In this document: one piece after another, positions 3,257 through 6,681 of the stretch
Position numbering within the stretch: position 1 is the stretch's first letter
Layout of the letters: each line of letters opens with the position of its first letter
NCBI GenBank assembly: GCA_019694895.1
Contig: JAIBBA010000016.1
Location: 1 to 35,625 of the forward strand
DNA: 35,625 nt
Direction of reading: 5' to 3'
DNA from: Chitinophagales bacterium
GTDB taxonomy: Bacteria > Bacteroidota > Bacteroidia > Chitinophagales > BACL12
Translations under genes and position numbers: made by a program
The notes under the pieces: generated by a model
The model's database searches: none
What the model saw: only the letters and a program-made list of their open reading frames with translations
What the model was told of the DNA's origin: nothing

Positions 3257-4708
3257 TTATTTCTTTCTCTCCATCTCAGAAATACTGTTTCCTAAAGTTC
3301 CTTTGATTAACCCTCGGCAATTCTTGCTACCGCAATGGCATTCAAACGGTTCCATGTGCTCATCTAAAAATGTAGCGTAATCAAGTGTAAGTTCTTCACC
3401 ACATGAAATATTGCGCAGTGCTACAACATCCAAACCATCGTATGCCGTAGATGGCTCGCAGCTGTGATTTTGTGGCGCCCAGGCATTGGGGTCATTATCC
3501 CACAATAAAAACACTTCATTGCTTATCGGATAGGCATATCTCCTAAAAACTAATTGCATGTCTTCAGGCCAATGTGTTTCTACGTGTCGCCGTGTGGTGA
3601 TGCGCTGTGATGCTTCTTCACCATGAAAAATCACTTCGCCCTTCTCAATATCACGTGTCGCATAAATACCATATCCTGTGCGCGCATTTCCTTTTAAACA
3701 AAATGGTTTATGTGTTCGACGATAACGCGCCATCCCTTCATCAATAATAGCACGTAAAAAACCTTCCTGTCCAATACCGTCTTCGCGCAAAATATAATCT
3801 GCTGATCCCTCATATCCGTCGCTATAAAAAACGGAACAGGTGAAATTGATCTCCAAAAAATAAAGGTCGCCTTTATCATCCATTCTGAAATCTAATCGGG
3901 CGTAACCAACTCCGTTGAAGCCTGTAAATATTAAGCGAGTGGCGTCTTGCAACTTTTTAATGATAGCAGCATCCGTGACAGGTATATTGGCGTTAGGATG
4001 TAATTCTGATGTCTTCAGCGCATAGGTTTTGAAAGCAAATCCTTCGGGAAAAATATACTCTATGGGTTGTAAAACCTTTGCAGCGCCATTTTCATCGGGT
4101 GAGGCTATTACCAGTGCTGTAAACTCTCTGCCGGCAATATATTCTTCCACCAACAAAGGACCGTATTCTTCAATAATTGATTCGGCCTTTTTCTTTAATG
4201 CTGTTACATCATGCACCAGTGACTTTTCATCAACCCCCAAACTATCTCCTGCTTTTGATGGTTTTACAAATAAAGGAAACTGAAGTTGTGATGCAATGGA
4301 ATCTATCTCATCAAGGTTTTGTAATAATACAAATGCTGGCGTTTTTACACCGCATGTAAATGCTACATATTTCATTAACTCCTTGGTAGGATCGTAGAGT
4401 AATGATGAAGGTCCGGTAAAAGGCAAGCCCAGCAATTCCATGCAATAAATCACATCAATTGACGGAATACTCCAATCTAAATAACCTTCACACAGGTTTA
4501 CATAAATATCGTAGCCCTTTTTCTTAAGTTCACGTAACTGCTTGTAGGTAGTAAGCTTATTTAAAAAAACGTGATCTACAATTGCATTTGGCAATAGCGG
4601 TTGAAGATTGCGAGGGGGATCGTAGTATTGATAATCTACATCGCTGGTTGAATAATCCGGTTGCAAAACACATACTTTGAATGGCGCTACACTGCTCATG
4701 AAATTCAA
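3257..4708 (-). CDS. ATP-grasp ligase fused to a SET-domain methyltransferase
   Basis: A protein of 483 residues with two domains. Residues 10-330 form a D-Ala-D-Ala-ligase-like ATP-grasp: K149-P150 with the flexible loop SKAGDSLG, VEEY at 187-190, RLDFRMD at 271-277 and the metal-binding LEIN at 285-288. Residues 335-466 form a SET domain: TGYGIYATRDIEKGE, NHSCEPS at 414-420, EELTLDY at 438-444, and a post-SET zinc motif CHCGSKNC (C457, C459, C464). Both active sites look intact. An ATP-grasp would form an amide or peptide bond, and SET proteins methylate lysine amines using S-adenosylmethionine. The real substrates are unknown. It is the second gene of an operon, 33 bp after an ATP-grasp gene. 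Codon 1 or codon 4 could be the start. Confidence 0.85.
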   Translation of the reverse strand: MNFMSSVAPFKVCVLQPDYSTSDVDYQYYDPPRNLQPLLPNAIVDHVFLNKLTTYKQLRELKKKGYDIYVNLCEGYLDWSIPSIDVIYCMELLGLPFTGPSSLLYDPTKELMKYVAFTCGVKTPAFVLLQNLDEIDSIASQLQFPLFVKPSKAGDSLGVDEKSLVHDVTALKKKAESIIEEYGPLLVEEYIAGREFTALVIASPDENGAAKVLQPIEYIFPEGFAFKTYALKTSELHPNANIPVTDAAIIKKLQDATRLIFTGFNGVGYARLDFRMDDKGDLYFLEINFTCSVFYSDGYEGSADYILREDGIGQEGFLRAIIDEGMARYRRTHKPFCLKGNARTGYGIYATRDIEKGEVIFHGEEASQRITTRRHVETHWPEDMQLVFRRYAYPISNEVFLLWDNDPNAWAPQNHSCEPSTAYDGLDVVALRNISCGEELTLDYATFLDEHMEPFECHCGSKNCRGLIKGTLGNSISEMERKK

Positions 4709-4741
4709 CCGATTTATAATGATGCTTATTTATTGATTTTT

Positions 4742-5929
4742 TTATGCTTCGCGATATGACTTCTGCAATTTTCTAACGCGATTCTTTTTCATCCAACGAT
4801 ATGTGGCATCATTGATGATCTCAACTACCATTTGAGCAAATGATTTATTACTCATGCGCAAAATCGCACCAATGGAAGTATAATCTTCATCCTCACTTAA
4901 ACCGCATTGTGCGTTCACTTCCAGCACGCCAATTTCACCGGTATGCTTGTCCATGCGCAGGTCTACCCGCGTATAACCCTTGCCGCCAACCGATACATAG
5001 GCATCCCAACTGATGCGTTTCAATTTACTGATGAGCGAACGTGCCGGTAAGGTGTAATTATAGAAATTATCGTTTTCCGGCATGGGTGTTTCGTCTTCAT
5101 ATATTTCCCATAGCCTGTCGAAAGAGAGAAATTTTTCCTTATCTGGGAGCGATGGATGAAATACGCGTTCAACCGGTGTATAAATCACACAATTTCGTGG
5201 TTGGTCAGAAGCGCCAATGATCATGGTGGTGTATTCCGGCCCATTGATATATTGCTCAACAACAATGCCTCCGGCCGATAATTGCCATCCGCGATAGCCA
5301 TCAAATATTTTATTGATTTGCTCTTTCAACTCTGTTTCATTCTCTACCACATTTTTTACATTCAATCCCATGCTCCCGCCAGAAACTGCTGGCTTTACGA
5401 TCAGCGGAGATCCTAATCGCTGAAATATGCCGCTGATGTCCTGATTGCGATCTGTTACCGCTTCCCATTTGGCAGTAGGCACTCCTGCAAGATCAAACGC
5501 CTCCTTCATGGTGATTTTGGAAGTCGTAATATCGTAGAAATATGCATCGGCGCCGGTATAAATGAGTTTGTGCTTTTCTAATGCATGCACCACCGATACG
5601 CCCGGTGCACCATTTACTTCATCGCCATCACAAATATTAAACACTACCGGAAATGATAAACCCGCATTTCTCTCCGCTGCAATATCGGCAATCACATTTT
5701 GGTAATTACCCATATTCACCGGCTGCCATTGCCATTGAATTTGCAACTGTCTAAAAGTCTTCGTGTATTCTTCTATACTTTGGGTGAAATCATAATAGTA
5801 ATCCAGGTTAGGATCTGATGTTTCAAGTTGCGGTGCCAAAACCCAAACTTTTAGTTGGTCTAAGGGTAGGGCATCATGTAGTAAAAATCGGGGGTCGGCG
5901 GTCGGGGCCAACTGTTGCTCCTGCTCCAT
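4742..5929 (-). CDS. ATP-grasp ligase (D-Ala-D-Ala ligase-like)
   Basis: A protein of 395 residues. The N-terminal preATP-grasp domain is followed by the ATP-grasp core: IVKPAVSGGSMG at 177-188, VVEQYI at 223-228, NGPEYTT at 229-235, RVDLRMD at 321-327 and VLEVNAQCG at 335-343. All nucleotide and magnesium ligands seem present. It is unlikely to be the housekeeping Ddl, because there is no cell-wall gene context, it has a long insert near 255-300, and it is paired with a second ATP-grasp protein fused to SET. The pair suggests stepwise ligation of two units onto one acceptor, then N-methylation; this is inference. It is the first gene of the operon, with a good promoter 27 bp upstream of the ATG. 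Confidence 0.85.
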   Translation of the reverse strand: MEQEQQLAPTADPRFLLHDALPLDQLKVWVLAPQLETSDPNLDYYYDFTQSIEEYTKTFRQLQIQWQWQPVNMGNYQNVIADIAAERNAGLSFPVVFNICDGDEVNGAPGVSVVHALEKHKLIYTGADAYFYDITTSKITMKEAFDLAGVPTAKWEAVTDRNQDISGIFQRLGSPLIVKPAVSGGSMGLNVKNVVENETELKEQINKIFDGYRGWQLSAGGIVVEQYINGPEYTTMIIGASDQPRNCVIYTPVERVFHPSLPDKEKFLSFDRLWEIYEDETPMPENDNFYNYTLPARSLISKLKRISWDAYVSVGGKGYTRVDLRMDKHTGEIGVLEVNAQCGLSEDEDYTSIGAILRMSNKSFAQMVVEIINDATYRWMKKNRVRKLQKSYREA

Positions 5930-6249: not shown

Positions 6250-6681
6250 ATGCTGAGTGTATCATGTAAGGCAGCAATTAAAGCAGTAGTATTTCTGGGT
6301 GTTCAACATCAATCTAGCGAACGATACAGTATTGGAGAAATTGCTGCGGAAATAAATGAGAATAGTCATACCGTAGGCAAGCTGTTGCAAAAACTCACGC
6401 ATGCCGGCATCATCAACAGCATCAAAGGTCCGCACGGAGGATTTTATATCAGCGAACAACAAAGGCATAAACACGTTATCGATATAGTAGAAGCTATTGA
6501 TGGAAAGGAAGTTTTTTTAGAATGCGGATTAGGATTTAATAAATGTTCAGATTCGAAACCTTGTCCTTTTCATAACGACTTCAAGAAAGTGCGTGATCTG
6601 TTCACAGAAATGTGTCGCAAGAAAAAAATATGTGAACTCGACGAATCGGTAATTCGAGGAAATGCTTATTTGAGGGGATAA
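6250..6681 (+). CDS. Rrf2-family transcriptional regulator
   Basis: A protein of 143 residues, the normal Rrf2 length. The N-terminal winged helix-turn-helix (about 5-70) has the typical VGKLLQKLTHAGIINSIKGPHGGF segment, split here as helix (43-57) and wing (58-65). The cluster-binding loop carries C92, C99 and C105 (spacing C-x6-C-x5-C) in the ECGLG...CPFH context, so an iron-sulfur cluster is likely and the protein may sense redox state, iron or nitric oxide. C122 and C128 are extra. It is divergent from the ATP-grasp operon and followed by a separately promoted kinase gene. The upstream dyad suggests autoregulation. The target genes are unknown. Confidence 0.92.
   Translation: MLSVSCKAAIKAVVFLGVQHQSSERYSIGEIAAEINENSHTVGKLLQKLTHAGIINSIKGPHGGFYISEQQRHKHVIDIVEAIDGKEVFLECGLGFNKCSDSKPCPFHNDFKKVRDLFTEMCRKKKICELDESVIRGNAYLRG

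Follow-up and report, generated by a model that had tools for sequence, protein, structure and literature searches.

Which product can a bacterium make with two adjacent ATP-grasp enzymes, when one of them carries a SET methyltransferase domain at its end? The question is raised by a pair of genes in a 35,625-nucleotide stretch of DNA from a Chitinophagales bacterium (contig JAIBBA010000016.1), called here the window. A first-pass annotation had described two enzymes resembling D-Ala-D-Ala ligase (Ddl), the second fused to SET, in a tight pair, and had read two ligations and an N-methylation as signs of a made-to-order small peptide or of a peptide tag on a protein. The description of the genes held, and the dedicated small peptide stands as the interpretation that we favor. 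The N-methylation could not be maintained as established, the nearest solved SET relative, BurB, being a methionine S-methyltransferase.

The gene pair in the window and its conservation

Gene A (4742–5929, minus strand, ATG start) encodes a stand-alone ATP-grasp amino-acid ligase of Ddl fold with 395 residues, assigned from Pfam, AlphaFold and Foldseek. Gene B (3257–4708, minus strand) encodes 483 residues, in which Pfam and alignment recognize an ATP-grasp ligase joined to a C-terminal SET methyltransferase. The listed start of B is a TTG; an in-frame ATG nine bases on (4699), which fits the orthologues better in the alignment, is the likelier one. The spacing from A to B is 33 nt, or 42 nt with the ATG start. 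Both proteins match the Pfam family Dala_Dala_lig_C (PF07478; gathering cut-off 24 bits), A with 62.3 bits (5.7e-17) and B with 70.5 bits (1.8e-19). All the best Foldseek matches of their AlphaFold models (pLDDT 87.2 and pTM 0.88 for A, 86.1 and 0.78 for B) are Ddl-type structures. With profile, fold and ATP/Mg ligands all satisfied, A and B belong to the Ddl-fold group of the ATP-grasp superfamily.

The ATP-grasp part of B occupies about residues 1–330 (3719–4708, minus strand), as delimited by Pfam, alignment and tree, and the SET and post-SET part about residues 333–475 (3284–3712, minus strand), as delimited by Pfam, PDB match and alignment. The Pfam SET match has 42 bits (1.3e-10; gathering cut-off 22.4 bits) over residues 345–444 and is followed by the post-SET motif CxCxxxxC, whose zinc cysteines C457, C459 and C464 (3317–3340, minus strand) go together with C417 of the NHSC motif. 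By profile, NH motif, catalytic Tyr and post-SET Cys, the C-terminal domain is a SET (class V) methyltransferase, for which methyl transfer is predicted.

A pattern scan of genome contigs gave 63 loci with B orthologues of 57–70% amino-acid identity, mostly from Chitinophagaceae and also from Saprospiraceae and one Gemmatimonadetes bin, the occurrence of B beyond Bacteroidota being taken from this one scan; most of the loci compared are metagenome bins. In every orthologous locus that could be scored (62 of 62), B is immediately preceded by A in the same orientation, a pairing well above chance. The open reading frames of A and B frequently overlap in these loci by 4–32 nt, which suggests translational coupling. 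An alignment of 29 diverse B proteins shows no variation at K149, E188, R271, D273, E286 and N288 of the ATP-grasp part or at N414, H415, C417, Y444, C457, C459 and C464 of the SET part, so the zinc motif is indeed as intact as had been proposed. Residues K179, E225, R321, D323, E337, N339 and G343 of A are likewise invariant over 21 orthologues; catalytic residues are thus retained in the homologues of both enzymes. Compared with the same-genus relative, dN is 0.16 for A and 0.27 for B, and dS is saturated or near 2 for the two genes; against its nearest relative, B has a dN/dS of about 0.13, at a dS of 2.15 that is near saturation. Such low dN at such dS points to purifying selection on A, on B and on both halves of B. 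The protein distance matrices of A and B are correlated with r = 0.92.

The next gene upstream of A, divergent from it (6250–6681, plus strand), encodes an Rrf2-family regulator containing a cluster of cysteines (CGLGFNKCSDSKPC), and the same divergent arrangement of Rrf2 and A is present in the same-genus relative (L121:8273-8746). This regulator may control the pair, for example via redox or iron-sulfur status.

Partner genes in relatives

From the window, the pair had been noted to lack an adjacent transporter or other tailoring gene. This remains correct there, and no transporter gene was found to adjoin the pair elsewhere in the same genus, but it does not extend to the relatives. When the pair was searched across genomes and its neighbors were listed, a stand-alone SET protein (S), a gene with a transporter domain or a full ABC exporter, and a further SET protein (S2) emerged as partners. 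S, of about 165 residues, adjoins the pair in about 15 Chitinophagales and Saprospirales loci, mostly directly upstream of A. In 10 of 53 loci B is immediately followed by a transmembrane protein of the ABC_membrane_3 family (PF13748), which is seen in some Chitinophagales; it has no ATPase domain, and a close orthologue is present in only 3 of the 17 B-positive genomes of the sample described below.

A second B subfamily, with 38–41% identity, occurs in two other families and in Chlorobium-like genomes, the latter assigned via their BChl A antenna protein. The Chlorobium-like loci with sufficient sequence have the order S, B, ABC exporter and S2, with three SETs in all, S2 being the third SET protein; the exporter combines transmembrane with ATPase domains, and the flanking genes vary from locus to locus. 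No orthologue of A was found in the Chlorobium-like genomes, where, with the limit applied, B itself was the sole match. Since A is missing from these operons, two ligations are not a constant feature. B is the constant element, and A, S, S2 and the exporter are lineage-dependent partners.

Other neighbors are of a different kind. The penicillin-amidase, sugar-hydrolase, HAD-like and TMEM164-family genes of Sediminibacterium-type loci are missing in other lineages, so we discard them as pathway members and attribute them to ordinary synteny of close relatives. In one locus (L127:4541-8372, minus strand), genes for an N-formylglutamate amidohydrolase, a MATCAP/QEGLA protein and a glutathione-synthetase-like ATP-grasp protein follow an ATP-grasp-SET gene immediately, across a gap of 441 nt. 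Against plasmids, the B query returned only ATP-grasp matches without SET, namely Van ligases and rhizobial ATP-grasp proteins. A Thioflavicoccus mobilis plasmid (L165:4485-8831) has a Ddl-like ATP-grasp gene after genes for diaminobutyrate and 2,3-diaminopropionate synthesis, a set that suggests a Dap-containing dipeptide.

The association of S with B was counted in an even set of 396 Bacteroidota genomes, with S called at E <= 1e-15. B is present in 17 of them, S in 15 and both in 14; that is, S accompanies B in 14 of 17 genomes and occurs in 1 of the 379 B-negative ones (Fisher p = 4.8e-22). Relatedness inflates the genome count, and the fairer count is therefore that by genus, which gives S in 6 of 9 B-positive versus 1 of 163 B-negative genera (p = 1.8e-8). 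Physical linkage is not the cause of the co-occurrence in all cases, since S is distant from A-B in genome G346, and since three separate contigs of G265 carry S-A, B and the transporter protein, respectively; S is unlinked to the pair in several further genomes. S gave no match in the window's genus, nor in G264 and G394, and genome G045 has S-type SET proteins without B, so the association, though strong, has exceptions. In G045, ATP-grasp, acetyltransferase-like, dehydrogenase-like and S-type SET genes lie within 8 kb (L135:6651-14246, minus strand), with no ATP-grasp-SET fusion.

The remark that SET domains are uncommon in bacteria was borne out for the window's genome, in which the S query matches nothing but the SET domain of B, and not for the relatives, in which stand-alone SET proteins are numerous. 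At L142:6343-7340 (plus strand), an ATP-pyrophosphatase-like gene with a GGIDSTAA motif is overlapped at its end, by 4 bases, by the start of a stand-alone SET gene, possibly another small-molecule context for SET.

The SET domain and the proposed pathway

SET domains are best known as histone methyltransferases, and most SET enzymes act on proteins. Among solved structures, BurB (7.7e-12) comes closest to the B SET domain, followed by KMT2D and KMT2A, and BurB is also the best PDB match of S (5.8e-11). This enzyme of Burkholderia thailandensis is a SET methionine S-methyltransferase that converts free methionine into S-methylmethionine, an intermediate towards the osmolyte DMSP (PMC12542666). 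BurB contacts its methionine via main-chain atoms (PMC12542666), so the sequence of the B SET domain cannot decide for or against methionine as its substrate. The active-site Tyr motif is DYA(S/T) in B and BurB and DYxF in the KMT2 enzymes; the Phe/Tyr switch position has a small residue in the former and Phe in the latter, which hints at a roomier pocket in B. Both B and BurB also have the post-SET pattern FxCxCGxxxC. BurB, however, is a stand-alone enzyme that feeds DMSP synthesis with BurI, BurD and BurE, whereas the SET domain of B is fused to a ligase. No such set of decarboxylase, aminotransferase and aldehyde dehydrogenase was recognized near the inspected orthologues, most neighbors being judged from sequence starts.

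We think it somewhat probable that a dedicated pathway for a small methylated, peptide-like metabolite has its core in A and B, as ligase and ligase-methyltransferase, respectively. Each ATP-grasp enzyme would activate a carboxylate as acyl phosphate and couple it to a small amine or to an amino acid. With SAM as donor, the SET domain of B, together with S and S2 where present, would methylate a side chain of either a free amino acid or the short product; this product would exit through the ABC exporter in the lineages that carry one. As the window's genus has neither stand-alone SET genes nor a transporter gene next to A-B, the pair would rely there on a single SET, and its product may remain intracellular or exit otherwise. 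It is from the intact ligases, the SET domains and the exporter that we infer a methylated, exported short peptide. The A-B pairing, the invariant catalytic residues, the S-A-B order in many relatives, the co-occurrence of S, the exporter operons, the likeness to BurB, the departure from Ddl in motifs and tree, the missing precursor reading frame and the correlated distances of A and B count for such a pathway; pocket residues that do not reveal the substrate, the mostly protein-directed action of SET enzymes and the patchy distribution of S, A and the ATPase-less transporter protein count against it. More tentatively, and with doubt slightly outweighing confidence, the loci could represent a class of ribosome-free and carrier-free peptide pathways common to Chitinophagales, Saprospirales, green sulfur bacteria and the Gemmatimonadetes bin, in which SET domains (one in the ligase and up to two beside it) serve as tailoring modules and the product is exported. 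Iyer and colleagues reportedly described in 2009, for amidoligase gene neighborhoods, conserved ATP-grasp clusters with predicted small peptides, which the A-B loci would resemble. The L-amino-acid ligase BacD is also an ATP-grasp enzyme, with amino-acid joining as predicted for A, and a weak PDB match of A (6.5e-4), but the sequence match of A to BacD and other ATP-grasp dipeptide synthetases is far below that to Ddl, and we know of no SET partner for these ligases.

Another use of the same chemistry would be protein modification, in which a protein receives one or more amino acids from the ligases, in the manner of tubulin tyrosine ligase-like enzymes or RimK, and SET methylates either that protein or the residue attached to it. 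Besides the preference of SET domains for protein lysines and the resemblance of B-SET to KMT2 enzymes, it has a precedent in TTLL12, a eukaryotic protein with SET-like and ATP-grasp (TTL) domains in one chain and the only other combination of this kind in the literature searched (PMC3520985). The ATP-grasp domain of TTLL12 is nevertheless of the TTL family, whereas that of B is Ddl-like (PMC3520985). B is also placed beside MATCAP and N-formylglutamate amidohydrolase genes in one genome. We nonetheless consider protein modification unlikely: no conserved candidate target gene lies next to the operon, the closest solved SET relative works on free methionine, and an ABC exporter with up to three SETs per operon fits a small product better.

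The fate of the BurB product, which leads to DMSP, brings to mind a compatible solute, that is, a charge-neutral, betaine-like methylated dipeptide (e.g., with trimethyl-lysine or S-methylmethionine) kept intracellular against osmotic or other stress. The lack of transporter genes in the window's genus and the frequency of orthologues in Chitinophagaceae and Chlorobium-like bacteria would suit this role, which we regard as quite improbable, because the Chlorobium-like operons carry an export-type ABC transporter and the loci share no osmotic-stress genes; the KdpD-like kinase and K+ transporter adjoining A in the window are not seen at the same-genus copy.

Distance from D-Ala-D-Ala ligase and meaning of the pair

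The Ddl fold of both ligases could also be read as a sign of cell-wall modification, with alternative D-Ala-D-X ligases and a methyltransferase acting on peptidoglycan precursors. Against the NCBIfam Ddl models, however, A scores 89 bits for a cut-off of 243 and B 80 bits for a cut-off of 246, so both miss by a wide margin. The D-Ala-binding motifs established for E. coli DdlB (GGxxxE, GSS, KY and PG-S) are replaced in A and B in the alignment with the genome's own Ddl (L003) and other Ddl, although the ATP and Mg residues are retained. At the position of the GGxxxE loop there is a segment with a conserved YYD in A and YD in B, and GSS gives way to GGS in A and to GDS in most B; the omega-loop KY is missing from both, and the PG-S loop position reads QCGLSEDEDYTSIG in A and TCSVFYxxGYEGSAD in B. 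In the maximum-likelihood tree, A forms one clade (100/99) and B another (99/97), which are sisters, with Ddl apart (100/100). Moreover, a canonical Ddl with the D-Ala motifs is encoded elsewhere in the same genome (contig C168).

On cut-offs, motifs, tree and separate Ddl together we reject a cell-wall ligase identity; judged by them, A and B are not Ddl, and behind the Ddl-like fold the substrates are probably other than D-Ala. With Ddl and Van ligases they have the fold and the ATP/Mg-binding residues in common, and they differ from them in lacking the D-Ala motifs, in the fusion of B to SET and in their separate clade. No mur, van or racemase genes were recognized beside the orthologues, whose neighbors do not point to a known pathway such as cell-wall synthesis, and cell-wall modification is thus very improbable. 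Beyond the A/B group, the ATP-grasp relative that the tree places closest is a protein of Myxobacteria (L096-L112), of at least about 730 residues, which has two Ddl-fold ATP-grasp domains in tandem but lacks SET.

Graspetide-type clusters contain ATP-grasp enzymes and methyltransferases too, but maturation of a ribosomal peptide is hardly credible here, as the ligases fall in the Ddl-fold group and a search of 27 loci found no conserved precursor reading frame over the 700 nt upstream and the 600 nt downstream (all the recurring small ones lie inside known genes), which agrees with the earlier statement that no precursor gene is nearby.

We return, then, to A and B as the core of a pathway for a small methylated peptide. 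If this is true, it would be the second documented setting, after BurB, of SET domains acting on small molecules and the first case known to us of a SET domain covalently joined to an amino-acid ligase; no earlier description of a bacterial ATP-grasp-SET fusion appeared in the literature searched, which lies mostly outside subscription journals. It would also give a genetic handle on a methylated peptide, through the cultured carrier Ferruginibacter paludis CECT 8366 (L040) and the four-gene Chlorobium-like operons. Furthermore, it would be a warning that, among bacterial SET proteins, an annotation as protein-lysine methyltransferase may conceal a metabolic enzyme.
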